A stretch of 64,000 bases of DNA from Halalkalicoccus sp. CGA53 (GTDB taxonomy: Archaea; Halobacteriota; Halobacteria; Halobacteriales; Halalkalicoccaceae), in contig NZ_CP144124.1 in NCBI RefSeq assembly GCF_036429475.1, forward strand, positions 124,001 to 188,000, read 5' to 3'. The notes beneath the pieces are model-generated. The model did no database searches. It worked only from the letters and a program-made list of their open reading frames with translations, and was not told the origin of the DNA. Below, piece by piece: positions 17,901-47,966 of the stretch. Both the position numbers and the translations under genes were made by a program. Position 1 is the first letter of the stretch; every line of letters starts with the position of its first letter.

Positions 17901-18154
17901 GAGAGCAGATCTGCCGGTCCGAAGCGTCGTTCGTAGCACTCCTGGATTACGCTCGAGAACGTGAGTAGGTGTAGGCGAAGAGGTGGGTGATCTTCCGCCC
18001 ACGCGTCAGTAATCTCTCGATGATGATTCGCATTGTCATCGATATAGAGAACGCTTTCGGGGTGGACTCCTGCGAGCGATTCAGCGCGGTTGAACGCTTC
18101 TTGACGAAGTGACTGAAATTCAGATCCTAAGAGAACGGTCGGAGGTGGACACAT
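14930..18154 (-). CDS. AddB-like PD-(D/E)XK nuclease / inactive-helicase subunit (pair 1, subunit B)
   Basis: About 1074 residues from the ATG at 18154 (MCPPPTVLLG); the frame extends to 18220. The N-terminal half resembles an AddB/RexB-type helicase domain with no clear Walker A. The C-terminal nuclease carries YAQCGFKFYLNQVL, GVIDRAGV and GIVYDYKTG with LPLYAAAAK. It ends with CRYCDFSEIC. Together the four cysteines match the Fe-S clamp of AddB nucleases, and the D/DYK residues look intact. A TATA-like AT-rich stretch at about 18172-18184 suits a leaderless start at 18154. The stop overlaps the A-subunit start by 17 bp. Divergent from the nuclease-like gene at 18300. Confidence 0.85.
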   Translation of the reverse strand: MCPPPTVLLGSEFQSLRQEAFNRAESLAGVHPESVLYIDDNANHHREITDAWAEDHPPLRLHLLTFSSVIQECYERRFGPADLLSINNRRQLIAQALRDIDGEVPLDDPHLHRESIMELFNALEADGYNTPLTIQSLIDSQGVSSEASETVLTAYERYATLRTDLLTDGLYTLGGAYERLLSDEVDIESLLSSVDVVVLSGFYELTTLQRAFIEKLAGSLPMVVILPAVDTDASVESGANEAIKDALEFYETLDAEFHQLKREQPTALSASAGAMYDPNVTGRIDLSDASIEWQTAATPDREIRQIAGQIRAKLADGVDPTEIVVAIPGLISYREHFQDYFEAADIPTALVVNKLLYQTAVGRAVLDLLELCTGVQRSDIFTQLLANPFVTLTHGLGTSEAELSRRARLLPTTDVEVFLSELDADTKAVLDDFLDACSEVSSLPGTDGAQTFETLIDRLGIEDALADLESEQNVYDAQMEHRSFGQIQQVLDSTAYVCELTDVDDPVELIDEELQTLRIPPPRQPTRGVVSIIGLEDAYLSSYSHLYLAGLTEADFPIRPDRPIYFQTLVDELSSLSFSQPRLEARYQFATLVSSADSVVLSTPKATFTDEPLLESSILDELCRVSTLEATEPQQSICTREDLQRAVNQLGSPTEMHAAVDAAIERADFTADCGKWLQAGTDCTANRASAGLTEHDAQIDPERIESLYPTAIREPYSPTRLKKYAQCGFKFYLNQVLDFDEPEEYNLEPDALELGSLLHDILERFFTELQSEQGEPVDLRAHSISELESKLASAAFVEIDDASLPYNDQFYRQWLEQLLAGLATPEENPYYGENRAHGGDDRGLLIRFLEEEYENRSDTPMLFEASLGVGADEEHLALETPSGDSITVRGVIDRAGVKADDDGAPEGIVYDYKTGNPKVKNTLDGIEFQLPLYAAAAKPALEKHYGNSIKTVDSGFYQIKPPATLSSTRSWTLRKYFDRTDEPEVEFERFHNEVIPERLGTIAAAIGDGVFHTTIVDEQTAGCRYCDFSEICDVRPHRRRDVVETITETENTVYVPEQAENRSYLKSLGGDADE

Positions 18155-18299
18155 ACTATATGCCGGTAATGATAGTAAAAATAGTTTTGCGATGTATTCA
18201 AATAGAAAACTCGTTGACAAACCTTTTTAAGCGAAAGTCGCGAATTCCGCAGAACACTATCGCTGGACTATTTCAACCAGGAATGAATTGCCGTCTTTG

Positions 18300-19124
18300 A
18301 TGGTAGAGTATCCGAAACCGAATCTCGATGAGTTACCCGAATTGTACACAGACCTCGATCATTTGTTAGTGGATGTAGAACAAACCCTCCGAGAGCATTT
18401 CGAAGTAAGAACAAAAAATGGGGTAGACATGATTTTCTTTGGAGAAGCTGACCAGGATACATACTTAGAGGCGATCCACGCTGACCGGGATACAATGATT
18501 CCGTTCTTTCAAAAGATAGCGGGGGTCCCTGATCGCGAACTCGAACGTCTCTATGGTGTCGCGAATTTCAATCGATTTCGTACCCGAAAATCTGACTTTT
18601 ACACTGAGGAGGAAGCAATCATATTTGCCAATGCCATGGTTGACCTCTTACCTGATAATCTCTATCTAGAGACACCACTCTATACGTTCGTGAAAATGTG
18701 GGAGAATGATCAGAGACGACACGTCAGGGCACGGTATGAACGAGATGTACGAGAATATCTTGATTCTTGTGGTTTTTCAAATTTTAAGGGAAACTCACTT
18801 CCTGGAGAACCTGACTTTGTAGTTCCAAATACGGAGCCATACGAAGTGATTGGTGAGGTCCGGGTGATACAGCCTCGGGATTACAAAAAAAGATTCAAAG
18901 AATTTGGTTCAGAGGCCCGGGCTGCGGAGATCCATTTCCCCAATGCGAAGTTTGTAGCCGTTGCGCATGTTGGGCGGCAGATAGAGCGACGAAACAGAGC
19001 GGAATTACGTAAGATGTTGTATGAATCCAGTGCGGCTGAAATCCATGCTGCTTTTTTCCAAGACGAATTAAATCTTCTAGTCAATAAATTAGAAGAATGG
19101 GGGATCTCACGAAGCAAGCGATGA
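18300..19124 (+). CDS. Predicted restriction-endonuclease-like protein next to a methyltransferase
   Basis: A 274-residue protein. The N-terminal ~130 residues are helical (LYTDLDHLLVDVEQTLREHF; FRTRKSDFYTEEEA; YLETPLYTFVKMWENDQRRH). The C-terminal part has PGEPDFVVPNTEPYEVIGEVRV, with D172 and E186-V-R188 in the places of a PD-(D/E)XK core. The last catalytic residue would be Arg rather than Lys, so activity is uncertain. The methyltransferase gene starts about 60 bp downstream on the same strand, which suggests a restriction-modification-like pair. The frame opens at a TTG at 18288; the ATG at 18300 is preferred. It is AT-richer than its neighbours. Confidence 0.6.
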   Translation: MVEYPKPNLDELPELYTDLDHLLVDVEQTLREHFEVRTKNGVDMIFFGEADQDTYLEAIHADRDTMIPFFQKIAGVPDRELERLYGVANFNRFRTRKSDFYTEEEAIIFANAMVDLLPDNLYLETPLYTFVKMWENDQRRHVRARYERDVREYLDSCGFSNFKGNSLPGEPDFVVPNTEPYEVIGEVRVIQPRDYKKRFKEFGSEARAAEIHFPNAKFVAVAHVGRQIERRNRAELRKMLYESSAAEIHAAFFQDELNLLVNKLEEWGISRSKR

Positions 19125-19152
19125 AGCCGGTCACACTCGAGTGATATATACA

Positions 19153-19160
19153 TTTAAGTA
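19153..19160 (+). promoter_or_regulatory. Predicted TATA box of the 19.2-kb methyltransferase
   Basis: TTTAAGTA lies 24-31 bp before the ATG at 19184, the position expected for a leaderless archaeal transcript. The methyltransferase can thus be transcribed separately from the gene before it. Confidence 0.45.
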
Positions 19161-19183
19161 CTAAGGGGCAGCAGTTTTAGCAG

Positions 19184-20545
19184 ATGAAAGGGCATGTTCC
19201 AACCCCACCTGAACTTGCAGATTCGATGGTAGAGAAGCTCTTCTCAATTCGCACTCCGAAAGAGGGCGATCGGGTTCTCTATCCCGGAATGGGAACCGGA
19301 CCGTTTGTTGCAGCCGTTGAGCGGTTTTGCGAACGTGAAGGCATGGCAGTGCCCGATGGTATTGGAGTCGAACTCGATCCGGAACTGCTCGCCGAGTCAC
19401 AAGAACTTCACGCCGAACGTACAGTGGATATTATGGAACGTGATTTCCTTCGCGATCTCTCTGATTTGGACTCATTCGAATATATCATTGGAAACCCACC
19501 ATATGTTCCAATAGAAGACCTTGACGAGAAGGAAAAAACGCGATACAAAGGTGGATTTGACACCGCTACCGGTCGATTCGATCTCTATGCTCTCTTTTTT
19601 GAACAGGCACTCACGAAGCTCACTGACGATGGTGTTCTCGTCTTCGTTACACCGGAGAAGTTCGAATATGTAGGTAGTGCAGCGCCACTGAGAAAGCTTC
19701 TTCAATCGTACTCAATCGAGGAGATCGAGCATGTGGCAGAAGACTCGTTTGATGGGGTCACTGCTTATCCGACGATCACCACGATCACGCAAGAAGGCTC
19801 AGAGGAGACTCGGGTCGTTCGTCGAGACGGCACCTCTTCGTCAGTTGTTCTGCCGAAAGATGGGTCCAGTTGGGCGAGTCAGATACGGGGAGTAGATCTT
19901 TCTGACCTCGAGACAGGCGTGACGCTTGGAGAGGTCTGTAGCCGAATTAGCTGTGGTGTCGCCACTGGAGCAGATGGGCTTTTTGTCCAGAACCGGGAGG
20001 AAGTTCCACCGCAGCTTCTCGATGAGTGGACGTACCCCACCACATCGGGAAAGCAGCTTCAGTTGAACGACGGCCCCGATTGCGGAAGCGTGTTCATCTC
20101 TCCATATGCCAAAGATGGTTCGCTTATCGATGAAGACGAGTTAGGTGATTTCGGCCAATGGGCCGAGATGCACAGAGACCGTCTCGAAGATCGATATTGC
20201 TATCAAAACGGTCACCGAGCGTGGTACGCCTGGCACGAACGCCCACCGTTGGATGATATACTCCAACCCAAAATCCTTTGTCAAGATATTGCCAAGGAGC
20301 CAAAGTTCTGGATCGATGAATCGGGTGAGGTCGTTCCGCGTCACACGGTTTACTATCTCATTCCAGAAGATCACGTCGACCATCGAGAGCTCGCGGAGTA
20401 TCTTAACGGACCGGAAGCACGCGTTTGGTTGGAGGCAAACTGCCAGCGAGCAGCAAACGGCTACTACCGGCTTCAATCGAAGGTGCTGAAAGAACTCCCA
20501 GTACCCCGTGAGTTTGGAGCAGAGTATCAGGCAACGTTGGTTTGA
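19184..20545 (+). CDS. N6-adenine DNA methyltransferase (class I, NPPY type)
   Basis: A 453-residue SAM-dependent DNA methyltransferase. Motif I is VLYPGMGTGPF at residues 31-41, the acidic end of strand 2 is GVELDPELL, motif III-like is MERDFL, and the catalytic motif IV NPPY is at 104-107. The C-terminal half (CSRISCGVATGADGLFV; YYRLQSKVLKELPVP) looks like a target-recognition region of the Eco57I/type I kind. It methylates adenine at N6 in a specific sequence. Paired with the nuclease-like gene upstream, it probably marks self DNA. A TATA box suits its ATG at 19184. Confidence 0.88.
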   Translation: MKGHVPTPPELADSMVEKLFSIRTPKEGDRVLYPGMGTGPFVAAVERFCEREGMAVPDGIGVELDPELLAESQELHAERTVDIMERDFLRDLSDLDSFEYIIGNPPYVPIEDLDEKEKTRYKGGFDTATGRFDLYALFFEQALTKLTDDGVLVFVTPEKFEYVGSAAPLRKLLQSYSIEEIEHVAEDSFDGVTAYPTITTITQEGSEETRVVRRDGTSSSVVLPKDGSSWASQIRGVDLSDLETGVTLGEVCSRISCGVATGADGLFVQNREEVPPQLLDEWTYPTTSGKQLQLNDGPDCGSVFISPYAKDGSLIDEDELGDFGQWAEMHRDRLEDRYCYQNGHRAWYAWHERPPLDDILQPKILCQDIAKEPKFWIDESGEVVPRHTVYYLIPEDHVDHRELAEYLNGPEARVWLEANCQRAANGYYRLQSKVLKELPVPREFGAEYQATLV

Positions 20546-21243: not shown

Positions 21244-22674
21244 ATGGCTGTATTCCGACCGAGTACTGACGGACTTCTACAGGGGTGGAAAGAATTGATT
21301 CGGAGTGAGCCATCCGGACCTGGGTTCAATCTACGAGAAAATCGGCAGACGATATTCAATACTCGGATGAATGCGTTTCTGGAATCTCCCTCAGAAGAAC
21401 GGTTTCTCGAACTCTGGAGAGAGGATGCGATTACAGCGTACGAGAACCCAGGCCCACAACTCGTATTGCACTCATTCAACGAAGAGATCCAGACTCTAGC
21501 TGACTTCTTTCAAGAACTCTCCGAAGCAGATGTGTATAATGAGGATTGGTCGGAACGCATGTGGAACTGGGCTCTCTGGGAAGTCTATACTCGGCTGAAC
21601 GCTGACCAGCCAGTGATTCTAACCAAGGAGGCCACAACTGGGCTCAAAGGGCTTGGAGTAGATGTCTCTGGCTCGTTCGAGGATCGGATGAATTCGTTAC
21701 GAGAGTTCAGGGAGTATTACACCGACCAGATCGGCCATCCAACTTCCGGAACCCCTCACGAGACCACGATACGCATCGAACTCGAGCAGTTCTTCCACGC
21801 ACTCTTGACCCTCTCGGCTGAGGACGTCTCTGCGGAACTCAAAGGGCCGTACAAGCGGTTCTACCGTGCGGTACACGGCGGTCGGGAGGCTGTGTCAGAA
21901 CGCACTGAATCTGTCTCATTGCAGAATGAGACCTCAGTGGTCTATGCCTATGCATGGGCGAAAGCGAACGGAGCGTACGGGAGGGAGAATCGACCAGATT
22001 ACTGGGGTGGAACCCATTGGGAAAACTGGAAGGACGCCTACGCCACATACATCGATGAGTCAATTCGAAGCGAGTTCACGCTTGAAGATCTCAAGCCAGA
22101 AGATGTTGAACCGCTTTTCGACGAACTCACTCGTAGCGATGCAGCACCAATCAGCAAACCAGTAGCAACGTATCTGATGGGGAGTCAGTGGGGAACCTAC
22201 GTCTGGAATGACGTCGTAGATCGTTTCGTCGAGAATCCTGAGGAGTCCAGTGCTTTGCTCTCGTTTTTCTTTGACGACTCGGAGGACGTCATGGAACGAT
22301 TGGCAGCGTTCAAAGCGCATACGATCCACCTCGTCGATGAAAACGACAGGAGTCCGGGATCGATTCAGCGAATGGCGACGTCATTACTGATGGTAGCCCA
22401 TCCGGACGAGCACGTTGGCTTACCCCCACAGAAGACGGCGACATTTCTCACAGACAAGAGCACGCTCCCAAAGTTCAAATCGGGATTCCGACCAGAACAG
22501 TATGCGGTCATCATCCACGCACTGCGGACCCTTCGTAATGAACTCGAGCAAGCGCTTCGGGAACTTGGATCAGATCAGAGGATGACCATGCTCGATGTTC
22601 ATAATGTGATCTGGATTTACGAAGGGACTGGAGAGCCGATTGAAGCGCAACTCCCGCCAGAAATAGGGGAGTGA
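21244..22674 (+). CDS. Unknown protein sharing a domain with the McrB-like protein of this island
   Basis: A 476-residue soluble acidic protein without an enzymatic motif that I recognise. Residues ~45-190 match residues ~458-610 of the McrB-like protein at 34147-38004. Shared features in order are F-E-PSE-RF--LW, LTLWELF/WALWEVY, YPIINSSTRDGLEFFGY versus QPVILTKEATTGLKGLG, and FKQEYRALVGHGSSGTDHE versus REYYTDQIGHPTSGTPHE. The remainder includes SKPVATYLMGSQWGTYVWND, which resembles the same type of fold again. McrB N-terminal parts recognise target DNA, so this may be a stand-alone specificity or regulatory module. It sits between the methyltransferase and the CARF/PIN pair. Confidence 0.7.
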   Translation: MAVFRPSTDGLLQGWKELIRSEPSGPGFNLRENRQTIFNTRMNAFLESPSEERFLELWREDAITAYENPGPQLVLHSFNEEIQTLADFFQELSEADVYNEDWSERMWNWALWEVYTRLNADQPVILTKEATTGLKGLGVDVSGSFEDRMNSLREFREYYTDQIGHPTSGTPHETTIRIELEQFFHALLTLSAEDVSAELKGPYKRFYRAVHGGREAVSERTESVSLQNETSVVYAYAWAKANGAYGRENRPDYWGGTHWENWKDAYATYIDESIRSEFTLEDLKPEDVEPLFDELTRSDAAPISKPVATYLMGSQWGTYVWNDVVDRFVENPEESSALLSFFFDDSEDVMERLAAFKAHTIHLVDENDRSPGSIQRMATSLLMVAHPDEHVGLPPQKTATFLTDKSTLPKFKSGFRPEQYAVIIHALRTLRNELEQALRELGSDQRMTMLDVHNVIWIYEGTGEPIEAQLPPEIGE

Positions 22675-22772: not shown

Positions 22773-23834
22773 TCATCGTTGATCGAATCGCTCCACGATT
22801 TGAATAGCCCGTCCGAGTTTTGGTTCGATGACTGGGCTTCGAACATCAACCTCGACTTTTTCGTCCTGCCAGTGTTTTCCTGTTTTCCCGTCCCAGACTC
22901 CATACAGCGTTATTTTGGGGAGTTGAAGGACACCGAACTGGACAGCGAGAACATACAGAGCGTTCGCCACGTCTTCCCACGATGCCGTTGTGGTTCGTGG
23001 CAAGTCGATCGGAAACGAGACGTGATGAGCCCACACTCCGGCTTCCTGTGCGTTGTCGATGAAGCCGTAATCGTTGCTGAACAGAAGCACTCGCTTTCTA
23101 TTCCCGATATCGTACTGGCGGTAGGCTTCGATGATCTCCTCATCTCCAGTCCCGATCTCGTCGGTGTCCTCGGCCGGTACGAGATCCGCCGTCCTGCGTG
23201 AGGCGAGTCGACGGAATTCATAGAGTCCCAGAAAGCCCTCGCGATTGTCGCCTGCGGGCTGGTTCTGGAGTCGCGCGAACTCCTCGCCAAATGCCTCGGT
23301 GAGACGCCTCGTTTCGTAGTGTTTGTAATGCCAATCGAGTTCTTTTTTCACCCCTTTCGAGAGTGCGTAACCGGTCGTAGCGGGACGATCACTCGCATCG
23401 GATCTACCCGTTCTCGGATCGATATCGAGAACCTCCGGGATACGAAAGCCCATGAGATTCGTATCGAGTCCGATCATGATCGGGGAATGACCTGCTTCGA
23501 GATCAGGATAGCCACGACGCCGAACGAACTCGAGAAGATCGTCGTGGTTCTCTAAGGGAAGCAATCCTCCTCCGATCACGCCCCGGATATAGCTGTTCTC
23601 GTCGGGGAGATCCTCGAATACCTGTGAACCGTGTTCGATCTCGACTGCCTCCCGATTTTCCTGGTAGGTTACTGCTCCCTGGGTGAAACGGACGGTCGCG
23701 ATACCGTTGTCTTCAAGATCGAATCGAAAAAGTTCTCCAATAGTCTCACAAGGGTGCTTGACGGAGATTTTAGTCGTACCCGAATCGTACAGCGCGTTCA
23801 AAACGGACAGGAGGTGTTTACGAGAGACGTACAT
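22773..23834 (-). CDS. PIN-like nuclease, effector partner of the CARF-like gene
   Basis: A 353-residue protein. Residues 1-115 form an uncharacterised N-terminal domain (FRFDLEDNGIATVRFTQG). From residue 118 there is a PIN-like domain: D124 in IGLDTNLMGF, E165 in GVKKELDWHY, D231 in GDEEIIEAYRQY and D255 in LLFSNDYGFIDNA. This is the order of acidic residues that bind metal in PIN ribonucleases. The last ~50 residues are basic and beta-rich. Its ATG overlaps the stop of the upstream CARF-like gene (TAATG), so the two are made together. Inference: a nuclease switched on by a nucleotide signal sensed by the partner. Confidence 0.7.
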   Translation of the reverse strand: MYVSRKHLLSVLNALYDSGTTKISVKHPCETIGELFRFDLEDNGIATVRFTQGAVTYQENREAVEIEHGSQVFEDLPDENSYIRGVIGGGLLPLENHDDLLEFVRRRGYPDLEAGHSPIMIGLDTNLMGFRIPEVLDIDPRTGRSDASDRPATTGYALSKGVKKELDWHYKHYETRRLTEAFGEEFARLQNQPAGDNREGFLGLYEFRRLASRRTADLVPAEDTDEIGTGDEEIIEAYRQYDIGNRKRVLLFSNDYGFIDNAQEAGVWAHHVSFPIDLPRTTTASWEDVANALYVLAVQFGVLQLPKITLYGVWDGKTGKHWQDEKVEVDVRSPVIEPKLGRAIQIVERFDQR

Positions 23835-24301
23835 TAGACCATCTCCGCGAAATCCACTAACTCGGCGTTTGTACGTGGAATATCAGGATAGCACCGGCCG
23901 TGATCGACTGACTGCAAATGGAGATAATAGACGTGATCTGCTTCATACTGCAAGCCAACCTGGAACGCGATCGCGGACATAAACTTCCGTCCGGGTGTGA
24001 AATTGACTGCTACACTAACTGACTGAGCTCGGGCATCCGAAATCCCGTCAATGTAAAAAGACATGATCTGTCTATACTGTGTTTCTGATTCCAGTTCGTG
24101 TACAGTCACAGTCGGTGAAACGTCGTAGGCGGCGACGATGTCCTCGAGCAGTGGAACCAGATATTTGGTCGTTTCAACCAGTCCGGGGTTCGATAGCATA
24201 CGAATTTCCTCTGGAATCACACCCTCATCGCATGCAGCAATCAAGGGATTCACCACCGCCTCAATAGTCGGACTTGCGTTCGTCAGCCAGATTACAGACA
24301 T
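23834..24301 (-). CDS. CARF-like ligand-sensing protein
   Basis: A 155-residue Rossmann-like protein from the ATG at 24301 (a TTG at 24322 is also in frame). It begins with a beta strand and loop, MSVIWLTNASPTIEAVV. Later come IRMLSNPG, VTVHELESE and the key segment SVSVAVNFTPGRKFMSAIAF followed by ADHVYYLHLQS. The T-PG-K-M-SA pattern is the signature loop of CARF domains, which bind cyclic oligoadenylates or other nucleotides. The gene is only a sensor; the coupled downstream gene supplies the PIN-like nuclease. No cas gene or CRISPR array is in the window, so the signal source is unknown. Confidence 0.65.
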   Translation of the reverse strand: MSVIWLTNASPTIEAVVNPLIAACDEGVIPEEIRMLSNPGLVETTKYLVPLLEDIVAAYDVSPTVTVHELESETQYRQIMSFYIDGISDARAQSVSVAVNFTPGRKFMSAIAFQVGLQYEADHVYYLHLQSVDHGRCYPDIPRTNAELVDFAEMV

Positions 24302-24417
24302 TCGTCCTGTACTTGAGTTCAAACAGTATGAATGTCACTCTATAGTTGATAGACAAGATCCCGATAGATAGTGGTCTCCCAAACGGTCATATAGATGACT
24401 TCCAATGGGAGAATGAG

Positions 24418-25668: not shown

Positions 25669-28600
25669 ATGGGTGTATTTGTCGAACAGGGGTCACTGGA
25701 ATCGTTTCTCATTGATCGCTGGAATAAGTCATCACCGCACGAGTTAGGCGATACTGCGAACGGGCTCTGTCTCCTCGAGGGACGAATCGCCCGACAGAAT
25801 CTCATCAGGACCCTTGTCTCTGATTCGGTCCCTCCTGAGCAGGCTGCAACGTACTCATCCATCGAAGATCTCGCGAAAGTGCTCGTAAGGGAGCGTTATG
25901 GACAAGCCAGCATCCTGAATCGGCATATACATGTTCGGCTACTCGGAGAAGTAATTGAATCCGCCAGAGATGGCCATTGCTCAGATGAACTGCATTCGTT
26001 TGCCAAGATCGAGCGACTGACCGAAGATACCTATCTGGAGGAGTTGTTTGCAGAGCTCAACGAGTACTACCGCTGTACAGACGCAGGGGAAGACTTCGAT
26101 GATATCCTGCAAATAGCTACGGGACTCTCTGATGGCTTCGCACGACACAGAAGTGAACGGACACTCAAAGCGTTCGATGCTATCCATGATGATCTCCTCG
26201 ACCGAACGGCTTCGCTTCCAGATGGCGTTTTCCTCTCTCGGAGTCACTTAGTTCGAGAAGCTCGGCATGTTTTCTCCGACGTTTGGTCAAGTGCGTTCGC
26301 TCACATCGAGTGGGTCGCCGTTGCGACGGTCAATATCCTCGACAATCCAACGCTCCGATTTTTCGCTACCATTGCAGAGCTAGAAGGTCTACCGGACATT
26401 CACTTCTTTTTCGAGGAAGGGACCCGGGCGACTCTTTTCGATCGTTTAGCGAATGTCGGCTTAGAGCCCGTACCCCGTTCTTCAGGGTCCAAGTGGGATT
26501 CAGACACGAGCGCTGCAGGGAACGCGATGCTCGAGGTTGCCACGGGAGGCTTCCACGGAGATCACCCGCCAGAATCGGTTGAGTTAATAGAGGCACCGGA
26601 TCGTCGACGTGAAATCGAGCGTCTCGTCTCAGAGGTACGCGAGTTACTGGCTGGTGATGTCTCACCACAAGAAATGCTTGTTGTTGCTCGGAACGTCGAT
26701 CAGTATCGACCGATCATCGAGGACGTATTTACGAACAATGAAATCCCGTACCACGTTGAGACTCGCCGCCCAATGGCATATCTCCCATCCTATCGATTCG
26801 TGAAGGCGACCGTTGATCTAATAGAGGCTGCAGTCACCGATCGCCTCGATGTCTCCCATACAGAGGTGACCGATCCGCTCCGACTCGGGTACTGCCATCC
26901 CGACCACGCAATAGACAATGAGGGGCAGTGGCCAATGTCCGATAGCCGTTTTCTCCGTATAGAGCAACAACTGCACGCTGCTGAACAGGACGAAGGACCC
27001 CGCTCTATTGAGGACTGGTTATCGTTCGCAACTGGAGAGCAGAGCAATGGCGATGAGTGGAGTCAGTTAGCTGTGTTTCTCGAATGGGTACTCGAACAAA
27101 AAGAGACGCCGCCTGTGAGAGGTGCTGAGCTTCGAGAATTTCTCCAGGACCTCTTGTGGCCACATCTATGGTGTATCGCAAACGATCCGATACAGAGTCC
27201 ATCCGGTCCAGCTGTCGATCCGACGAGGACAGATATTAACAGCGAACACCAGACCTCCCATGTAGAACGGGTTCGAGACAGAGGGGAAACGCTCGAGATC
27301 TACTACGATCACATTCTCGAACTGTTCGACACTCTCAACCCCAGCTGGAATGTGGTTGGACAAGCCCTCGGTGACGTCATCGGTTCCGAGCCCTTCTGGT
27401 CGACTAATCGGGACGGTAACGCGGTCACGATCAGTGATGCGGGGCTTATCGACTTTCGAAAAGCCGAGCATCTTTTCATTGTCGGGTTGTCAACTGAGGA
27501 GTTCCCGATTGAGCTCTCAACCCCGACATTTACGCATAAGAAGCTACACGAAGCGACTGCACGTGCAACGAGAGCGGAAGAGAGCGACGTCCCCTATCTG
27601 TACTACGAATCAAAACTCGATCAATACGAGCAAGACCTCGATAGTTACGCAGCGGCCCTCAGTACCTGCACTGGTGAGCTCACACTCACGCAGTTCTATC
27701 TCGATTCCGAGAATGACCCAGTAGCGTGGTCACCGTTCGTTGACTTCCTCGATCCTGATCCGATAGAAGACGAGTACGTCACACGAATTCGACTTGATGA
27801 GTGGCTCCCAACGCCACGAGATGGGGAATCATGGCCGGATACCTGGAAGCGAGCATCTAAGCGAGATCTCCTGCGCTCGTACGTGTTTCATGCTGCGGAT
27901 GTAGAGCACACGGCCGGGCCTCGAATAGAGCAAGCCGAGTTTCACCATCTCGCGTTTCGAACCTCTGTAGATCCACTCGAACAGTTCGTTGGCCCACGCA
28001 TCGATCGCTACATAGAACCGATTTACTCGATATTCGTCGATCCTGACGAACCAGCATTCGACGGTGCGCTCTCGCTCGAGGATATTGTCGGTGGTCCGAT
28101 GAGATCGCACGAGATCGATCTCTTCGCTCAGTGTGAGCTCAAGTTCTACTACTATCAGCTGATGTTTAATTTCGATGGAGATCAAATCGAGCGCGATCGA
28201 ATTCCCGAACAGTATTGTGAAGTACCAACGAGTCGGTTTGGCGAGCTACCTGCAGTTATCCACAGTCAACAGGCTGATGAGAGCTTCAGTACAGGGATGA
28301 AACGGGTCATCTCCGACTTACTACCCGACCGTCAGCATGATCTCGATAGCTTTGCATCCAGGGGTGAATTGCGTGATTGGTTCCAGGATCTTGAGCCAAA
28401 ACTCCCCCGTGAACTATTGCCCTCACTGTACGCTGAGTGGGAAGAGGTACAACGAGAACTCGACCACAGTATCGATCGTGGGTGGAATTGGGAGGACGAT
28501 CCCGATCCAGTACCGATCAGCGGGACCGAAGTAGTGCTCCCCCCACACAGAATCGACACGCTCTCTGATGGCTCGCTTCCGGTATTCTCGGTTCGTGAAC

Positions 28601-29088
28601 GACATTACGCAGAGCGAGCGCTGAAACAGTGCTGGACCGGAGGGAATCGCCCTTCTCGGGACGAGCAATGTGACGATCTTTGTCAAAGTTGTGAGCGATA
28701 CGATGACTGCTCCTATACAACGAAGCATATCCTGGATCACCGACTACACACGGCTGCAATACAAAGCAATGAGACCTCAGGATTCCTACTATACGAACAA
28801 GGTCAGACACGGCCAGATGCCAGACAAGGCCATCTCGTTGTAGATGATAGCGTGCCGTATGGGGACAGTGAGTCTGTCGAACCCTCATTGAGACGGATTA
28901 CTACTGACGAGTACAACGACACTGTTTCTCGCTGGCGGAGCGATATCGAACATCACGTCCGGCGCCTACGTCCAAGTCCCGGGGTCGAGTTCAGAACAGA
29001 GCCGGCCTTTGTCACCGACTTGAATGGCTGTGAGAACTGCGTGTACCGCGAATTGTGTCGAGTGCCGCTTCAGGAGGACCGACGATGA
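25669..29088 (+). CDS. AddB-like subunit with Fe-S cysteines but degenerate nuclease residues (pair 2, subunit B)
   Basis: A 1139-residue AddB/RexB-like protein. The N-terminal two thirds resemble a helicase-derived scaffold (IELIEAPDRRREIERLVSEV; MLVVARNVDQYRPIIEDVF; FIVGLSTEEFPIELSTPTF). The C-terminal part has FAQCELKFYYYQLMF (first cysteine, residue ~822) and ends CENCVYRELC, the AddB-type Fe-S clamp. Where the nuclease core should show GRID plus (I/V)DYKT, only PPHRIDTLSDGSLPVFSVRE is found, so the catalytic Lys and Asp look lost. An extra cysteine group, CDDLCQSCERYDDC, lies just after. The ATG of the A subunit overlaps the TGA (ATGA). It appears to be a structural or DNA-scanning subunit. 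Confidence 0.82.
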   Translation: MGVFVEQGSLESFLIDRWNKSSPHELGDTANGLCLLEGRIARQNLIRTLVSDSVPPEQAATYSSIEDLAKVLVRERYGQASILNRHIHVRLLGEVIESARDGHCSDELHSFAKIERLTEDTYLEELFAELNEYYRCTDAGEDFDDILQIATGLSDGFARHRSERTLKAFDAIHDDLLDRTASLPDGVFLSRSHLVREARHVFSDVWSSAFAHIEWVAVATVNILDNPTLRFFATIAELEGLPDIHFFFEEGTRATLFDRLANVGLEPVPRSSGSKWDSDTSAAGNAMLEVATGGFHGDHPPESVELIEAPDRRREIERLVSEVRELLAGDVSPQEMLVVARNVDQYRPIIEDVFTNNEIPYHVETRRPMAYLPSYRFVKATVDLIEAAVTDRLDVSHTEVTDPLRLGYCHPDHAIDNEGQWPMSDSRFLRIEQQLHAAEQDEGPRSIEDWLSFATGEQSNGDEWSQLAVFLEWVLEQKETPPVRGAELREFLQDLLWPHLWCIANDPIQSPSGPAVDPTRTDINSEHQTSHVERVRDRGETLEIYYDHILELFDTLNPSWNVVGQALGDVIGSEPFWSTNRDGNAVTISDAGLIDFRKAEHLFIVGLSTEEFPIELSTPTFTHKKLHEATARATRAEESDVPYLYYESKLDQYEQDLDSYAAALSTCTGELTLTQFYLDSENDPVAWSPFVDFLDPDPIEDEYVTRIRLDEWLPTPRDGESWPDTWKRASKRDLLRSYVFHAADVEHTAGPRIEQAEFHHLAFRTSVDPLEQFVGPRIDRYIEPIYSIFVDPDEPAFDGALSLEDIVGGPMRSHEIDLFAQCELKFYYYQLMFNFDGDQIERDRIPEQYCEVPTSRFGELPAVIHSQQADESFSTGMKRVISDLLPDRQHDLDSFASRGELRDWFQDLEPKLPRELLPSLYAEWEEVQRELDHSIDRGWNWEDDPDPVPISGTEVVLPPHRIDTLSDGSLPVFSVRERHYAERALKQCWTGGNRPSRDEQCDDLCQSCERYDDCSYTTKHILDHRLHTAAIQSNETSGFLLYEQGQTRPDARQGHLVVDDSVPYGDSESVEPSLRRITTDEYNDTVSRWRSDIEHHVRRLRPSPGVEFRTEPAFVTDLNGCENCVYRELCRVPLQEDRR

Positions 29089-32000
29089 GCAATGAAAACA
29101 TCTCAGAAAACCTTGACCGAATTGAGGAGATAACTACCCTTGCGACGGGACCTGCAAGTAATCAGCTCCAACCGGACCAGGCGGCTGTATTCCTCGAGTT
29201 CCATGAGAATTCGGGACGGGTTGTGGTGGACGCGGGTGCAGGTACGGGAAAGACGACAGTGCTTATTCGAACGGTCGCCGAAGCAGTCGTCCGTGAGGTC
29301 GATAATGAGGGAAGTCCATTCGAGCGGATTCTATTGACTACTTTCTCGAATGACGCCGCCAACGAGCTCAAGACACGGCTCAAAGCACAACTTCGCGAGC
29401 ATGATGCCCACAGTCAAGATCCCCTGCCACGATCAGTATGGCGGGAGATCGAGACTGCAGCGGATATCGGTACGATCGATAGCTTCTTTCACGACTTGAT
29501 AGGTGAGATCGCGATCGATATCGGATTGCCTCCGGATTTCGAAGTTCGAGGTCAGCTCGAGACCGAGACGCTCCTTGATGAGATATTCGCACATCTTCAG
29601 AACGAGCATCCGGGCGAACTTCGCCGACTCCAAACTGCCTATTCTCCTGAGGAGTGGCGAGAATATCCACCCAAATCGGTACGTGAGATCGTCTACCGAA
29701 TTCAGCAGAAATGTCGTGAGTTCTGTTGGTCGGTCGATAGTGCAGTCGATTCGCTCTGGATGAGCTTTGAGGATATGCATGCCGGAGAAGACCGCCCTAC
29801 AGATCTCGCAACGATCGATCGCATACTCGAAATGCAAATCGGCGAGGGCGAAACGGTTGACCCTCTTGACGGAGACATGGAACAACAACTCATCGACCAT
29901 GTCCGAGATACGTACGATCGGTCGAGTGCGATTATCGAGGACTTTGAAACCGTCCTCCGGACGTTCAACGAGCAGTATGATGAGCTGACTCGATCAAGTG
30001 GACTTCTCTCACATACAGACGTAACGTATCTCCTGTGGGAGGCGCTAACTGAGGACCCGGATGGGGTATTGGCGCAGAGTCTTAGTGAACGCTATGACTA
30101 CGTCTTCATCGACGAGTTTCAGGATACGAGTCACGCGCAGTGTGAGGTGCTCTCACACCTAATAACCGAAGAGAAAGACGGCACCCAACTCATGCTGATC
30201 GGCGACGTCAAGCAGTCGATCTATGAATGGCGCTCTGCGGAACCGAATATTTTCAACGACATTATCGACCATGCTCGTGATGATTCGATATCCGATTGCG
30301 ACCCGGCTCCGCATGTCGAAGCAGCGGGTATCACGTACCTCCCACTGGTATCGAACTTTCGAAGCCATCCGCACATTATCTCGACGGGGAATCGAGTATT
30401 TGCGGACATCTTCGCTGACGATGGTCGTGGAAGAATCGGAAGCATCGACATTGACTATGTTCCGCTTGAAGCTCGGCGCCCGAATACGGAGCCGGACGAC
30501 CCACACGTTCACATTCTGGACATGGGAGGGGAAACTAAGCGCGATTTCTGGGTAACGGGGGAGGCTCAACAGGCAGCTGAAACGATTCTCTCGATAATAC
30601 ACGGAGAAACGGCAGGGATAGCTGTCGATCGCTCACCACTGAACTCTGAGCAAACACTCGAAGATCCTGAACCGGGAGATATTACGTTTTTATTCAGAGC
30701 ACGAAGGCACATGCACATCTACGCTGAGGAACTACGGAACAGAGGGCTTGAAGTCTCGGTCGATGCATCCGACGATCTGTTCGAACAGCCAGAAGTTCGG
30801 TTGATGATCGACATACTCGATTGGTTTGCAAACCCCCATTCACGACCCTCCCTGGTACGTATCCTCCGATCGCCCCTTGTCGCGCTTTCTGATGAAACGC
30901 TTCGAGCATTAGCGAGTGAGCAGTACTATCTCCGAGCGCTGTTGGATGATTGGCCAGATACCCTCCCGATAGAGGATCAACACCGACTCGAAGGACTAGC
31001 TACTCTTCGGAATGACCTACGATGGGGACGTGAAACTGCGAAGTCCGACCTCGTGTACAAGATCCTCAGGCACTCAGGATTTGAGACGGTTGTTCTCGCA
31101 GATACTGACGCATTAGAACGCTATGGAAATCTGTGGCTGCTCGGGGAGATCGTGGATCAGTGGGAAGAAGACGAGTTACTCCCATACCGGGAGTTCGTTG
31201 AGCGTCTTACGACAATCAGAGATAGATCAGTTATGGAAGATCCGGATTATACGACGACTCGTCTCGCGGACGAGCAAAATCGTGAGACCATCACCCTTAC
31301 GACAGTCCATGCCTCGAAAGGGCGTGAGTTCTCGATCGTGTTTCTGGTGGATCTCCTCGCGCGATCTAATTGGCCACGAACCCAACTTGATCGCCTCTTA
31401 ACGAGTCGAACGCATGGGATGGCACTTCGTCCGCGCCAAGGTGAGACGCCCTTCCCGCCGAGACTAAACATTCCTAGTCCCGATGACGACAATGTATGGC
31501 TGAGCGAAGATTATGATGCTCAACCCCCCTCGTGTACTGGCCCAATCTGGCTGTCGGATGCCCGAGTCGAGCGAACTGGCCAATTCGAATATCCGAATCC
31601 TCTGAACGCACATTTGAAAGAACGGGAAGCAGAATTCTGGCGGATGCTCTACGTCGGGTTCACTCGAGTCCGTGACCATCTGTTTCTCGGGCTTGGACAC
31701 AGTGAAGTATATAAAGGAGAATGGAACACATGGATGGCACCACTTCGGGACCAGTTGCTGTTAGGGTCCGACGAGATTGGAAACGAAGAGATACGACTCC
31801 TTGACACACCTCAGAATGACGTTAGAGGAGTTACGGAAGCACCGGATAGCGTCCCAATCGGCATCGATGATATCCCGTTAGAAGCTGTCGAACCCGAGAG
31901 AACGGTTGAAATAGATGTTGATGATGCAGCAGTCTTCTTGGAGAATAGCGGACCAGATGAATCGGTCGAGGAAGTCCCGTTTCTACCGGAAACTGTCGAT

Positions 32001-32759
32001 GCCTCCGGTGTCCACCATCTACTCGAGTGTCCTCGACGGTTCCAATACAGTGTCGTCCAAGGGCAAAGCTCGATCCGTTACGAGACGGAGGCTGTAGCCG
32101 CTCCAGGTGAACTCCCACCAAAGGTCTGGGGTGATATCGTTCACAAGGCACTGGCGCTTTGGCACCAAAATGAACTCGAATTCAGGCGCTACCTTTCGGA
32201 CCTCGATGAGACAGTCGCTGACACCCTCAGAACAAGCGTGTTAAAGAACTACCGGCGGACCTCTACCCGACAAAGCATCAATTCACATGCCGATGAGGTA
32301 GTGATAGAACATCCTGTGAGGGCACTCCTCGAGGTAGATGGGCATCGAATCCCCTTCTATGGGAAGATCGATCTCCTCTATCGAGACGGTAGCGACTGGA
32401 TGATAGTCGATTTCAAAACTGGTGAAATTCCCGACACTGGTTCGTACCACCACGAGCAGTACCGTCGCCAGTTGACAGCGTACGCGTGGCTCGTTCAGGA
32501 AGTCTACGATATCACGATTCAGGATGCAAAGGTAGTATATGTCCACCCAGAATACGATGAAGACGCGTTCAGTCCCGACATTGAGGCCTTCGAGCGGTCG
32601 GTTGCGGACTCGATTAACTCGTTGAAGATTGATAAGGTGGGTCTCGAGGCACGTCCAGATCCAAAGCCGTCAGAAATCGATGATAGCCCGCCAAGCGGAA
32701 CCAGATGTGGATCATGCCCATATGCAGCCAGCGTCGGCGGACCCTGCAAGTACGGGTGA
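29085..32759 (+). CDS. AddA-like UvrD/Rep helicase-nuclease with its own Fe-S-type cysteines (pair 2, subunit A)
   Basis: A 1224-residue SF1A helicase-nuclease from the ATG at 29085. Walker A DAGAGTGKTTV is at residues ~49-59, FIDEFQDTS (motif II) at ~341-349, GDVKQSIYEWRSAE follows, and LTTVHASKGREFSIVF and LYVGFTRVRDHLFLG are motifs V and VI. The nuclease domain has FYGKIDLLYRDG and MIVDFKTGE, apparently intact. A cysteine in LLECPRRFQYS and three at the C-terminus (CGSCPYAASVGGPC) suggest an Fe-S clamp, which in bacteria is found on AddB. The gene is coupled to the B gene. Probable role: processive degradation of linear DNA, as defence or repair. Confidence 0.88.
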   Translation: MSNENISENLDRIEEITTLATGPASNQLQPDQAAVFLEFHENSGRVVVDAGAGTGKTTVLIRTVAEAVVREVDNEGSPFERILLTTFSNDAANELKTRLKAQLREHDAHSQDPLPRSVWREIETAADIGTIDSFFHDLIGEIAIDIGLPPDFEVRGQLETETLLDEIFAHLQNEHPGELRRLQTAYSPEEWREYPPKSVREIVYRIQQKCREFCWSVDSAVDSLWMSFEDMHAGEDRPTDLATIDRILEMQIGEGETVDPLDGDMEQQLIDHVRDTYDRSSAIIEDFETVLRTFNEQYDELTRSSGLLSHTDVTYLLWEALTEDPDGVLAQSLSERYDYVFIDEFQDTSHAQCEVLSHLITEEKDGTQLMLIGDVKQSIYEWRSAEPNIFNDIIDHARDDSISDCDPAPHVEAAGITYLPLVSNFRSHPHIISTGNRVFADIFADDGRGRIGSIDIDYVPLEARRPNTEPDDPHVHILDMGGETKRDFWVTGEAQQAAETILSIIHGETAGIAVDRSPLNSEQTLEDPEPGDITFLFRARRHMHIYAEELRNRGLEVSVDASDDLFEQPEVRLMIDILDWFANPHSRPSLVRILRSPLVALSDETLRALASEQYYLRALLDDWPDTLPIEDQHRLEGLATLRNDLRWGRETAKSDLVYKILRHSGFETVVLADTDALERYGNLWLLGEIVDQWEEDELLPYREFVERLTTIRDRSVMEDPDYTTTRLADEQNRETITLTTVHASKGREFSIVFLVDLLARSNWPRTQLDRLLTSRTHGMALRPRQGETPFPPRLNIPSPDDDNVWLSEDYDAQPPSCTGPIWLSDARVERTGQFEYPNPLNAHLKEREAEFWRMLYVGFTRVRDHLFLGLGHSEVYKGEWNTWMAPLRDQLLLGSDEIGNEEIRLLDTPQNDVRGVTEAPDSVPIGIDDIPLEAVEPERTVEIDVDDAAVFLENSGPDESVEEVPFLPETVDASGVHHLLECPRRFQYSVVQGQSSIRYETEAVAAPGELPPKVWGDIVHKALALWHQNELEFRRYLSDLDETVADTLRTSVLKNYRRTSTRQSINSHADEVVIEHPVRALLEVDGHRIPFYGKIDLLYRDGSDWMIVDFKTGEIPDTGSYHHEQYRRQLTAYAWLVQEVYDITIQDAKVVYVHPEYDEDAFSPDIEAFERSVADSINSLKIDKVGLEARPDPKPSEIDDSPPSGTRCGSCPYAASVGGPCKYG

Positions 32760-32819: not shown

Positions 32820-34154
32820 TTATTCAAGAAGTAGTGGATACTCTGCAAACGATTCTCTACTGATTTCCCTTGCGGTGATATGTGAAACAGATCCAGAATA
32901 AGAAGTTGTGTCAACTCCATCGGTAAAGATCAAACCTTTTAGCGAGGTGTCTGGTTCATCACTGAGATATCGCTCTCCAACTCTGGCGTATTTCATATAC
33001 TCAATGAGCTCTCGTAATCCTCGGTCGAACGTTTGTGGGCTATCAGTATACTTGATTTCCCCGAGGAGAACACTGGTAGGTACGTCCTCTGTGCTCGTTC
33101 GATCATAGAGCAAAACCACGAGATCCGGCCTTCCACCATAGACTCGATTGAACTTTTCTTTATCAAGAAACTGGTTTACGAGCTCTCGATGGGTGTCGTG
33201 AACGTCGACGAATCGTTCGAAAAATCCGGTTGCATTCTCTCTATCATCTTCACTGAGTGCTTCCGAGAACTGCAGATTGCCCTGTTTGTCGTGATACACC
33301 TCGAGGCGGTAGTTTTCGTTTTCGAGGCGTGCTATCTCGTTTGCTCCCGGTTCGATGATCTGGAGAGAGAGCCCCTCAAAGCGCTCTGAGGCTTCTAGTC
33401 CACGAATGAGTTTGAACACGCAGAAGAGTTCGAACAGCTGAGGAAGCCGCTCAGGAACGACGAGCGTGTCCATGAGGACTTTCCGTACGTCTTTGTCGTA
33501 TTGATTCTCGAGGAGGCGTTGGTACCGGTCGTATAGCTTGTACGCCTCAGTATAAAGTTCGTAACGAGAGGTGCGAGCAGCGGTCATCGCTCGTTGAGTG
33601 AGCCGAATGTCTCCTCCGTTCTGAATACGAGTGAGATGGACGTTACGGGTGTAGAGGCGATCGAACTCGGTGAGGAGACTTTCATGCCATCGGTCGGTCC
33701 GCCACGAGTACCCGAGTTGCTTGAGCTCGTTTTCGGCGGTCTCGTGGATGATCCAGAGGAGCTTTTTGAGCACGAGGTTTTCGGGGATATCGTACTCGGT
33801 GTATGAGCTATCGAAAACGAAAATAGAGCGGTCATCGAAATTCTCTGTATAGCGCTGCTTCGTCGTCTGATTCCAGTCGATCTTCCCCCGGACTTCACCA
33901 CGGCCGACTATCTGTTGACGCTCGTTGACTGTCTTTACCCGTCGAATACGGTTGGGAAGTTTAGTGACGAACTTGACGACGGGCTCGGAGAGACAGAAGT
34001 GAATGCGTTTGAGCCGATCGAAGTCATCGATACTGAGATCGGTAAAATCGAGTGTGTTCGCGACCTGCCGGTCGTTGATCGTGCCCGACCGCAGGAACGT
34101 GGTGAGCTCTGATTGGACGGCGTTCATTAGCTCTGTTTGCCCGATCTTACTCAT
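32820..34154 (-). CDS. mcrC: McrC-like PD-(D/E)XK nuclease subunit
   Basis: A 444-residue McrC-family protein from the ATG at 34154, which overlaps the mcrB stop (ATGAGTAA); the frame continues to 34208. The N-terminal part has the McrC marker GEVRGKIDWNQT. The nuclease core is GGRPDLVVLLYD followed by VLLGEIKYTD, the D ... E-x-K set of PD-(D/E)XK enzymes. McrC is the endonuclease and GTPase/ATPase-stimulating partner of McrB in modification-dependent restriction. The overlap with mcrB indicates a two-gene operon. It converges with the AddA gene of pair 2, with about 60 bp between their ends. The catalytic set looks complete. Confidence 0.82.
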   Translation of the reverse strand: MSKIGQTELMNAVQSELTTFLRSGTINDRQVANTLDFTDLSIDDFDRLKRIHFCLSEPVVKFVTKLPNRIRRVKTVNERQQIVGRGEVRGKIDWNQTTKQRYTENFDDRSIFVFDSSYTEYDIPENLVLKKLLWIIHETAENELKQLGYSWRTDRWHESLLTEFDRLYTRNVHLTRIQNGGDIRLTQRAMTAARTSRYELYTEAYKLYDRYQRLLENQYDKDVRKVLMDTLVVPERLPQLFELFCVFKLIRGLEASERFEGLSLQIIEPGANEIARLENENYRLEVYHDKQGNLQFSEALSEDDRENATGFFERFVDVHDTHRELVNQFLDKEKFNRVYGGRPDLVVLLYDRTSTEDVPTSVLLGEIKYTDSPQTFDRGLRELIEYMKYARVGERYLSDEPDTSLKGLIFTDGVDTTSYSGSVSHITAREISRESFAEYPLLLE

Positions 34155-37100
34155 CGTCGAAGGGGATATCGAAGAAGTCCTCCGCCTTTTTCTGAAGGAG
34201 CTCGCCATCGGTGTATCTTTTATTCCCGTCTAAGGCTTGGATAAGCTTCTTCTGTGTATTTGGACGCAGGCCCTCGAGTTGGGGAAATACAAGCGCAACG
34301 AGTGCAGAGGTGAGCGCTTCTTCCATTCGATCATCTCGGTCGGTGACACCCTCGTACGCGCTGATAAAACGGACGATGTCCCGGATGATCGACGGACCGA
34401 TCGGTCGATAGCTGTTGATCTCTTTCCAGATCTCAGTGAGCTCTTCGGCGAGTATTTCGAATATCGGCTCGAGAGTTTGATCTTCCTCGATCCATACTGA
34501 TGCATAGTTCGAGCCCCTTTCAGGATCTAAGAGCTCTGTTCTGAGAGAGCCGTCTTCGTTTTGCAGTGAGGGAATGCCGATATGGATGAAGTTGAATCGA
34601 CGCATGAACGCATAGGACATCTCATACAGTGAGGCCTTGTCGTAGGTGTTCATCGTCGCAAGGAGCCGCCAGGACGGTGTGACCGGGAACTGGTCTCTCG
34701 ATGCAGCGATCGCCTCTAACTCGGTATCTGGGGTGTCTGCTGTAACTGGGGTGATTTTGACCGTCTCATCTCGCTCGTAGGGCAACGTGACCGTATCACC
34801 TGTTAGTACGGAGAACAGTGACCCGAACGCTTTGTCGATATCCGAGCGGTTGATCTCGTCGATGATGAGCCACTTGTTGACGATACGGTCCTGCCGGAAG
34901 CAGTTGAGAAAGAGTCGTGGCTGAAAGACGAGTTCGGATCCGCCACCGCTGACGTTCGGGACGTACCCACCGATCGTATCGAACGCCGTCCATTCCGAAG
35001 TCGCGGTGGTAAACCGCCAGTCGTGGAGGTCTTCGATGTCTGTAGAGTGTGCGCTGAGTGTTTCAGTCGCCTCTTTCGCCACATGCTTTGCGAGCTTTGA
35101 TTTCCCGGTTCCCGGTGGACCGGTGAAGATGATGTGTTTACCGGAGTTGAGTGACGCTTCGATCTGGCGCTTAATCGAGTCTCTGTCCTCGAAATAGAGG
35201 TCTTCTGGCAGAGAGATGCCGACCAAAGGCGGGGAGAGGAGCGATTGGAGACGTTGAAGTTCCGGATCCAAGATCGGTCGGTCTGCTTCTTCAAGCGAGA
35301 GTATCGTTTCGTACTCGAACTCAGTCAGCTCGAACAGACTTCCTCGCGCATTATTTGTAATTACTAAGGACTCTTCGAGCTCGGGAAGTTCAGTCAATCC
35401 TCCCCAATCAATTCCTTCTACTGACCGGTCATACTTGATGAGGACCCCAGGGAACTCGTTTTCCGACTTCGTGTGCAGGCCTTTTTCCACCGTTCCTTGA
35501 GCAAGAATCTGTTTTGTGGGACTCGATTCGTAGAAAACTACCTTATCACCGGGAGATACTTTCTCAAATGCTCCAAACATTCGCTTTTTGTTTCCATGCT
35601 TGTTATAAGCAGTATAGAATATTTCACCATCCTCAGAAAAATCGCGTACTGACCAAATATTTCGATTTGCTGTTGCCCAAAAATACCGCGTTTTATTTGT
35701 TTTCCTCTCTATCCGGTCGGTGAGCCATTCACCAGCAGCATCCGAAAGATGGCCGAGATAGCCCTGACGTAGTTTCCCATCTTTCGTAAATGGATAGTAC
35801 TTTACCCCTTGTTTGATCTCCGGCGTCGTAAGCTTCTCTCGGATTTCGTCGACTACAATCGGTTCGTCAAGCCATGTGACCTCGAGATCGACGCGATACC
35901 GGTTGCTGTCTTCAGCTTCGACCTCATAGGCCTCGTCAAGAGCTTTGGAGTAGGCGGCAATCTCTCCGTCGTGGTTGTGGAATATCATATCCCCTTGACT
36001 AATGGCCGTTAGATCGCGAACCCACATCGTATCAGATGCACTCAAGAAGCCTCCCTCGATCTCCTTCCTTTGTTTCTGGTTAACCCAAAAATAGCTAGGT
36101 TGCTCGTCTGTTTCGAGTGTCAATATTTTGTGATAGAGTTCTGCGATCTCGTCGACAGCTTCTCGCTCGATAGCGTCATGATCAACTTTATCAATAACAT
36201 TGAACAGCTGGTCGATCTCGAGATTGATGGGTACTTCATGGTCAGTGCCGCTGCTTCCATGGCCGACTAAAGCTCTGTACTCCTGTTTGAATTCGTTGAA
36301 AACTGCAACGCTCTCTCCGTAGGTACTGCGAGAAGAATAACCGAAAAACTCGAGACCATCTCTTGTGGAGCTGTTTATGATTGGATATCTCTCAATGTGT
36401 AATAGCCCAAAAAGCTCCCAGAGCGTTAGTTTTGCTCCCAGATCGGCTTCCCAACGTGGATTGAACTCATCGGCTGTTAGAATCTCTTCGACGAGCGACG
36501 CAAGTTCTTCGAGAGATCGCCCTTGAGTTTCCGTCCACTTGGTGTAAATCGCATTGGGACTACCCATACGCTGTGCACTATACAGCAATGACCACAGGTC
36601 TCTAAATCGGGCTTCAGATGGATCTTCGATGAAAGCACGTGCTATTTCACGTGCTTCATCCGGATCATAGGCCCCTAATAGCGAGAAGTGGACTCCGTTG
36701 TGATGCTCTGAGATGATCTCCCCCCAGAGTTCGAGGACCTCTCGGTGTTCTACTGAAAGGACACCATCGTTACCACCCCCGAGATTGAGGGCGTCCTCGA
36801 TTCGTTCTAATTCCGATTCAGCACTATCTGCAAACTCGACGACCTCGAGACGACGGCATACGCTCCCAAGGAAATGGCCTACTTCAGCTGGGAACTCATG
36901 CAAAGTCCATTGATGGAAGAGCTCTTTTCCCTCCTTGAGACAATTAACTGATACGCCAGCCTCACCAAAGGGGTACCAATCAACGCCGATGAATCGTTTG
37001 TGGTGGATCTCCTCTGAGTCTGTCATAGGATCTGAGAGCGTCCCCATTTTCTTGGGGAAAGCCTCTGTGACGCGTCCGATCCCGAATGCAACATCTATCG

Positions 37101-42988: not shown

Positions 42989-42993
42989 GGTCG

Positions 42994-47223: not shown

Positions 47224-47966
47224 GAGTCAAGACCACCGCCGCACAAGCACTCCACGGCGCGCGACTCACGTTCGCCGACACCGTTCGCTGTCTCACCTGC
47301 AGCAAAGAACTCCGAGCCGGTGATCCGATTCTGATCTGTGCCAGAGAGCAGACCGAGTCCGAACCACTGCGCGTCACTTGGCTCTTTTGCACCGACTGCG
47401 AGATCGAGACCTCGGGAATCGCGGTGACCGGTCGGCTTACGACGACCTCCGATCCAGCCACACAGGAACACGCGCTCACGGTCTCGGTTCCCACCGAAAC
47501 CTCTGATCGCAGAGAGCTCCGAACGGACGGGGGCCAATCTGTCGATTCCGATTCGAACACCGAGCCCATCGAAAACGAGGACGACCCAGACGACTCCGGA
47601 GCGCTGATCGCGGACCCGTTCTACAACATTCGGGTTTACCACCTCGATGACGGCACGGGCACGACGCTCTGTGGACTCGACGGCGACTATACGTCGGTCT
47701 CAATCAAGGACGCGAAAGCCAGCTCCGTGCGCGTCTGTCGACGCTGTGAGAGCGCCCAGAACGGTGGCTACAGCACTCGTCCTTGCCCACACTGCGGGAA
47801 AGCGGTCGTCATCACCCACTGGCCGATGCACGTTCGGGAGTGTTCGGGCTCGAGCCAGCTCGGTGTTAGAGACGAAAGTGAGGACTGCGCGGATTCCGAG
47901 GAGCAGGACACAGGTGCCAGCCAAGATCACCCCTCCGAGTCGACGACGAAGGAGGCCCAGCGATGA
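47220..47966 (+). CDS. Zinc-finger protein of the duplicated cassette (intact copy)
   Basis: A 248-residue protein from a GTG at 47220, which overlaps the TGA of the previous gene. It has several cysteine pairs: RCLTCSKEL with FCTDCEIET near the N-terminus; VCRRCESA and CPHCGKAVVITHWPMHVREC further on. The N-terminal half also resembles a DUF-type zinc ribbon, and residues ~85-125 are an acidic linker. The C-terminal CxxC-H-H-C cluster looks like a C2H2-like finger. A degraded copy lies at 62447-63082. Its end overlaps the start of the coiled-coil gene at 47963 (ATGA). Possible DNA-binding role; not recognised more closely. Confidence 0.65.
   Translation: MRVKTTAAQALHGARLTFADTVRCLTCSKELRAGDPILICAREQTESEPLRVTWLFCTDCEIETSGIAVTGRLTTTSDPATQEHALTVSVPTETSDRRELRTDGGQSVDSDSNTEPIENEDDPDDSGALIADPFYNIRVYHLDDGTGTTLCGLDGDYTSVSIKDAKASSVRVCRRCESAQNGGYSTRPCPHCGKAVVITHWPMHVRECSGSSQLGVRDESEDCADSEEQDTGASQDHPSESTTKEAQR

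Follow-up and report, generated by a model that had tools for sequence, protein, structure and literature searches.

A helical module common to a haloarchaeal McrB protein and a stand-alone protein family, with a probable degenerate DNA-glycosylase fold

Introduction

The closest described systems to the locus examined here are the McrBC systems, in which EVE and other reader domains are described in the available part of the McrBC census (eLife 2024, PMC11090510). What McrB proteins recognize has been established for a small number of their reader domains only. The window analyzed here is a stretch of 64,000 nt from Halalkalicoccus sp. CGA53. A sequence-only reading of this stretch had noticed that a protein encoded apart from McrB has a domain in common with it, and had proposed that this domain is an adaptor or a DNA-recognition unit that could connect the two systems physically. 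We describe the extent, probable fold, and distribution of the domain, hereafter the N-module, and of a further module (the C-module) in the same stand-alone protein.

Results

Similarity of the two proteins

Both open reading frames were found at the coordinates and with the lengths given by the sequence-only reading (Table 1). The stand-alone protein matched the window McrB in BLASTP with 72 bits (E = 3e-17; 53 of 211 positions identical, 25%), and the aligned block covered residues 11-210 of the former and 422-626 (about 627) of the latter. The Smith-Waterman local score was 198, whereas 500 shuffles gave a mean of 45 (s.d. 5.6, maximum 69). The series of motifs first noticed in both proteins (PSE-RF--LW, the LWE block, GH--SGT-HE, and ELxQ-F) was present in full in the alignment. 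The shared block, originally placed at residues ~45-190 and ~458-610, was real, but its extent had been underestimated and was about 200 residues. It was asked at the outset whether the similarity is spread over unrelated helical proteins; this was not so, and besides members of the stand-alone family the confident matches comprised McrB-type AAA proteins and a small number of short relatives. The module profile found only two N-module copies in the window plus 40 kb flanks, one in the stand-alone protein and one in McrB, and searches of the whole genome returned the same two proteins only.

The stand-alone protein had no match among the Pfam, NCBIfam, PADLOC, or PHROGs models and, as far as the libraries and literature searched show, appears to represent an undescribed family. 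Its AlphaFold2 (AF2) model was all helical (mean pLDDT 90.3) and was accounted for by two modules; the second half (residues 236-464), missed earlier, is another module, which occurs at the N-terminus of other McrB proteins. Neither an AAA+ motor nor an McrC nuclease domain was found in the stand-alone protein by Pfam or in the AF2 model.

The protein encoded at 34147-38004 is an McrB, with an AAA+ domain containing NxxD, reader domains, and an adjoining McrC. It matched Pfam MrcB_N (2.3e-30), EVE (1.2e-6), and AAA_5 (3.6e-11) and contains the Walker A sequence GPPGTGKS and the NxxD motif (MNTYD); the two EVE-like stretches were assigned by eye. Homologues of the window McrC were the McrC-like neighbors of other McrB genes.

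Table 1. Coordinates of the principal features in the window
Feature	Position	Strand	Description or evidence
Stand-alone two-module protein	21244..22674	+	ORF, 476 aa
N-module of the stand-alone protein (residues 7-212)	21262..21879	+	BLASTP against McrB; profile 3e-76; fold inferred via relatives
C-module of the stand-alone protein (residues 236-464)	21949..22635	+	Homologue of the module at the N-terminus of a second haloarchaeal McrB subfamily
AddB-like and AddA-like helicase-nuclease pair	25669..32759	+	Between the stand-alone gene and McrB; NCBIfam addB 1.9e-9, addA 1.1e-70
McrC partner	32820..34208	-	Overlaps the end of McrB; nuclease motif D...EIK; sequence and gene order
McrB, 1285 aa	34147..38004	-	MrcB_N (ADAM), EVE-like, shared module, EVE-like, EVE, AAA+ motor
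N-type module inside McrB (residues 419-628)	36121..36750	-	BLASTP; profile 2e-76

Fold of the N-module

The AF2 model of residues 408-636 of the window McrB (pLDDT 93.3, pTM 0.90) was compared with 350,542 PDB chains using Foldseek. The top 15 matches were all HhH-GPD glycosylases (MutY, MagIII, and Thermotoga Ogg), and EndoIII, MjaOgg, and AGOG were found lower in the same list (probability up to 0.85). The E-values were 0.1-1 (best 0.11, none reaching 0.001) and the TM-scores 0.3-0.4; each match is weak alone, and the fold is deduced from the agreement of the model with the sequence evidence. The model of the full-length stand-alone protein gave weak PDB matches only.

When the shared module was compared with Ogg directly, profile against profile, the result was not significant, and the link requires a bridging set, A7. 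This set consists of seven distant relatives that the N-module profile reaches, some in McrB proteins and others in short proteins (254-256 aa), with neither window protein included. A7 aligned with the N-module profile (hhalign, probability 98, E 7e-15), and the reverse search with A7 as profile recovered the window McrB (iE 4e-5) and the stand-alone protein (E 6e-4). The A7 domains contain a clear helix-hairpin-helix (for example, LDGFGWATATELLHVLAPDTYAILNKRAV). Against PDB sequences, the A7 profile matched an 8-oxoguanine DNA glycosylase (E 3.5e-4), followed by further N-glycosylase/DNA lyases; the PDB chain closest to A7 has Asn at the catalytic Asp position. Profile-profile comparison of A7 with six archaeal Ogg proteins gave E 1.1e-6 (probability 91), and single bridging members matched Pfam OGG (0.0089, L097) and Ogg-HhH (0.031 and 0.18). 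The N-module most likely has a degenerate HhH-GPD DNA-glycosylase fold of the Ogg/MutY type, an assignment that is well supported. Two other leads were discarded: dynein matches for A6 (0.012) were reproduced by no other search and were taken as chance, and a Pfam MbnB_TglH_ChrH match on two modules (1.6e-5) had no support elsewhere.

Active-site positions

In HhH-GPD enzymes, the helix that follows the hairpin has the catalytic Asp at its start, and the Lys of the Ogg2 type lies in the second helix of the helix-hairpin-helix. When the modules were placed in register with Ogg, the catalytic Asp position was occupied by N, T, or S in all 33 (T127 in the stand-alone protein and N544 in McrB). 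The Ogg catalytic Lys was replaced by W109 and L526, respectively, and mostly by T, R, A, or W across the set, with K present in one of the 33. The second hairpin helix has an invariant Glu (33/33; E113 in the stand-alone protein and E530 in McrB). Given the loss of the catalytic Asp and Lys, the module, to judge from its sequence, probably does not act as a conventional glycosylase. Its natural remaining use would be the reading of bases or lesions, which would fit the place of the module among the McrB readers MrcB_N and EVE.

The C-module

The C-module was found near the N-terminus of McrB proteins of 739-1128 aa with adjoining McrC (loci L054-L057, L059, L061, and L062). The stand-alone protein combines two types of McrB front end but has neither motor nor nuclease. 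It is possible that the C-module belongs to the same superfamily as the N-module: in the AF2 model, its helices (371-385, 395-405, and 417-440) parallel the order of those of the N-module (108-118, 128-136, and 145-163), and the A7 profile matched it in the expected register (E 0.004, probability 8). Three profile comparisons between the two modules failed. A tandem-repeat origin, suggested by weak phmmer overlaps, was rejected upon these failures and is left as a hint only (the A7 match and a further one at iE 32). Elsewhere, two McrB proteins (L098, 7379-10732; L096, 9423-12449) appear to have two helical modules of this broad type in succession before the EVE-like domains.

Other genes of the window

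The stand-alone gene and McrB are on opposite strands, about 11.5 kb apart, with several genes between them. The AddAB-like pair located there is one of two different pairs in the island, the other being at 11116-18220 (-). At 22773-24322 (-), a CARF-PIN-like effector is apparently split between two genes with a one-base overlap, one for a PIN-domain protein (PADLOC CARF-PIN, 1e-31) and the other for a small Csx14-like protein (TIGR03642, 3.3e-4); a PIN relative (1e-49) was also found near an N-module McrB in L021. Perhaps a Type II restriction pair is encoded at 18288-20545 (+), where a 278-aa protein that may have a nuclease motif adjoins an Eco57I-type methylase. At 39035-46335 (+), a Type IIG-like methylase-nuclease precedes a PLD-SNF2 helicase (PADLOC C3a139/DrmD-like). 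Two closely similar proteins of 245-250 aa, encoded 15 kb apart (47963-48700 and 63079-63831, +), are apparently the result of a duplication within the window.

Distribution in haloarchaea

Among 392 Halobacteriales genomes surveyed, the full two-module stand-alone protein was found in about 13 (28-51% identity). Some McrB-type proteins matched residues ~10-215 only and others residues ~250-470 only, and profile searches gave about 12 McrB genes with the N-module and about nine with the C-module, plus a few weak ones in each case. Another lineage of the same phylum also has an McrB with a relative of the N-module (G526, L096). No viral relatives of the modules were found by tblastn on phages, by a pattern scan of viral contigs, or by Foldseek on BFVD.

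Strong matches of the stand-alone and McrB-borne kinds of N-module coincided in one of the 392 genomes, that of the Halalkalicoccus window. McrC was not detected in 6 of the 13 carriers of the stand-alone protein (G358, G331, G227, G152, G071, and G042), an absence that is only as good as the two queries used, Pfam PF10117 and the window McrC; the latter was added because PF10117 misses the McrC of the window itself. No McrC of the window type was found within about 10 kb of the other stand-alone loci inspected. In the N-module tree, the stand-alone and McrB-borne modules formed two separate groups (support 100/99, one label change), and this deep split ruled out a recent local duplication. 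Neither an operon nor a fixed partner gene was conserved for the stand-alone protein, and its neighborhoods varied between genomes. In G187 and G152, AddAB-like pairs adjoin the stand-alone gene, and in G015 and G049 the N-module McrB, but no such pair is near most copies. The stand-alone protein has no motor or nuclease domain and is not found with McrBC, so it does not qualify as an McrBC subunit; it and the window McrB are old, separate relatives rather than partners.

Relatives of the stand-alone protein showed dS values of 0.13-2.1 and dN values of 0.02-0.22 (dN/dS about 0.1-0.15). The family is under purifying selection and the gene is therefore maintained. Broken or truncated copies were also observed (L053, 9128-10527; L017, 9817-10119; L118, 9499-10386), which indicates that the gene has also been lost repeatedly. 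In L051 (7213-10595), genes for an ADP-ribosylglycohydrolase and an Exo_endo_phos protein and the stand-alone gene are consecutive on one strand. The Exo_endo_phos superfamily includes AP endonucleases. Genes for ADP-ribosylglycohydrolases were also located within 10 kb of the stand-alone gene in L013 and L050.

Discussion

We consider the chances somewhat better than even that the shared module is a degenerate HhH-GPD reader that does not excise, used in McrB and, separately, in a stand-alone family outside McrBC. With its catalytic Lys and Asp gone, the module would now read nucleobases or distorted DNA and leave them in place. Within McrB, several readers precede the AAA+ motor driving McrC, and the module would be one of them. 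The stand-alone protein would be no subunit of the window McrBC and would work by itself as a two-headed DNA binder for abnormal or virus-modified bases, either blocking the use of such bases or marking them for other nucleases. Both the base reading and this mode of action are inferences. In the DNA of halovirus HVTV-1, about 30% of G is the 7-deazaguanine dPreQ1 (PMC6884629), so suitable targets exist in viruses of such hosts. A bolder version, which we put forward tentatively and think more probably wrong than right, is that the stand-alone protein acts on its own as an antiviral reader, whose tandem pair of dead glycosylase-type modules flips virus-specific bases out and clamps them, stopping replication or summoning a helicase-nuclease without cutting, and that McrB has repeatedly borrowed such modules as specificity heads.

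If the resemblance to glycosylases were accidental, the module could be a helical protein-interaction domain of McrB-like ATPases. The Foldseek E-values, all >0.1, and the failed direct comparison with Ogg agree with this, but glycosylases take all of the top 15 places, and independent sequence evidence leads to the same superfamily in the right register; we regard an accidental resemblance as unlikely. Another view is that the active site has been rearranged, for example to use the invariant Glu, and that the module has remained an active glycosylase; the stand-alone protein would then generate abasic sites in viral DNA, like Brig1 and Brig3, whose fold is different. The HhH-GPD matches and the conservation of that Glu in 33 of 33 modules point in this direction, and so does L051, in which the gene follows those for an ADP-ribosylglycohydrolase and an Exo_endo_phos protein, since Brig1 homologues also occur beside ADP-ribosyl glycohydrolase genes (PMC11078745). 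This arrangement is not kept across loci, however, and with N, T, or S at the Asp position of every module and the Ogg Lys absent from both window proteins, an active enzyme seems distinctly unlikely. Activity on RNA or free nucleotides, as in the queuine-salvage protein DUF2419/Qng1, would be in line with the Qng1 structures among the higher-probability matches of the full-length model and with the described similarity of DUF2419 to DNA glycosylases (PMC9406330). Qng1 was absent, however, among the best 50 matches listed for the single-module model, and the catalytic residues are missing from the N-module, so we give this possibility little credence.

The role suggested by the sequence-only reading must be divided. 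DNA recognition gained support from the reader position of the module in many haloarchaeal McrB proteins and from its resemblance to a catalytically dead HhH-GPD DNA glycosylase. The other part, in which the stand-alone protein docks on McrB as an adaptor or specificity subunit and so connects two defense systems, was abandoned as very improbable: the two proteins have the module in common and are encoded in the same island, but the two kinds coincide in a single genome, 6 of the 13 carriers have no detected McrC, the groups are deeply split, and there is no operon. A functionless leftover of a broken McrB gene would account for the broken copies in some genomes (G137 and G045); full-length copies in about 13 genomes, the low dN/dS, and a tree group of its own oppose it, and purifying selection brings this explanation close to refuted. 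If the non-excising reader is correct, a dead base-excision enzyme would be a new kind of modified-base sensor in restriction systems, a large unannotated region of haloarchaeal McrB proteins would be explained, and a conserved unannotated stand-alone family would gain a testable role.

In comparison with known systems, the available part of the McrBC census makes no mention of glycosylase, HhH, or OGG (PMC11090510), and a search of titles and abstracts returned no description of a glycosylase domain in McrB or of HhH-GPD proteins in defense. The OGG-like Pfam family PF21790 is matched by the bridging relative L097 at 0.0089, short of the Pfam cut-off, and not by the window module itself. Like the Ogg2 and Ogg-HhH 8-oxoguanine glycosylases and MutY, to which it is connected in sequence via the bridging relatives, the module has a predicted helix-hairpin-helix followed by the Asp-site helix; unlike them, it lacks the catalytic Lys and Asp and is joined either to McrB or to another helical module. 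Brig1 and Brig3 are likewise glycosylase-type proteins of defense islands that recognize modified viral bases, but they belong to the uracil-DNA-glycosylase superfamily and are catalytically active (PMC11078745, PMC13160076). Like the McrB readers described in the available part of the census (ADAM/DUF3578, EVE, and other small domains; PMC11090510), the module precedes the AAA+ motor, in a row of MrcB_N, EVE-like, and EVE domains, but it differs from them in being all-helical and glycosylase-like. We therefore rate it as an addition, in a new form, to a known class of McrB readers.
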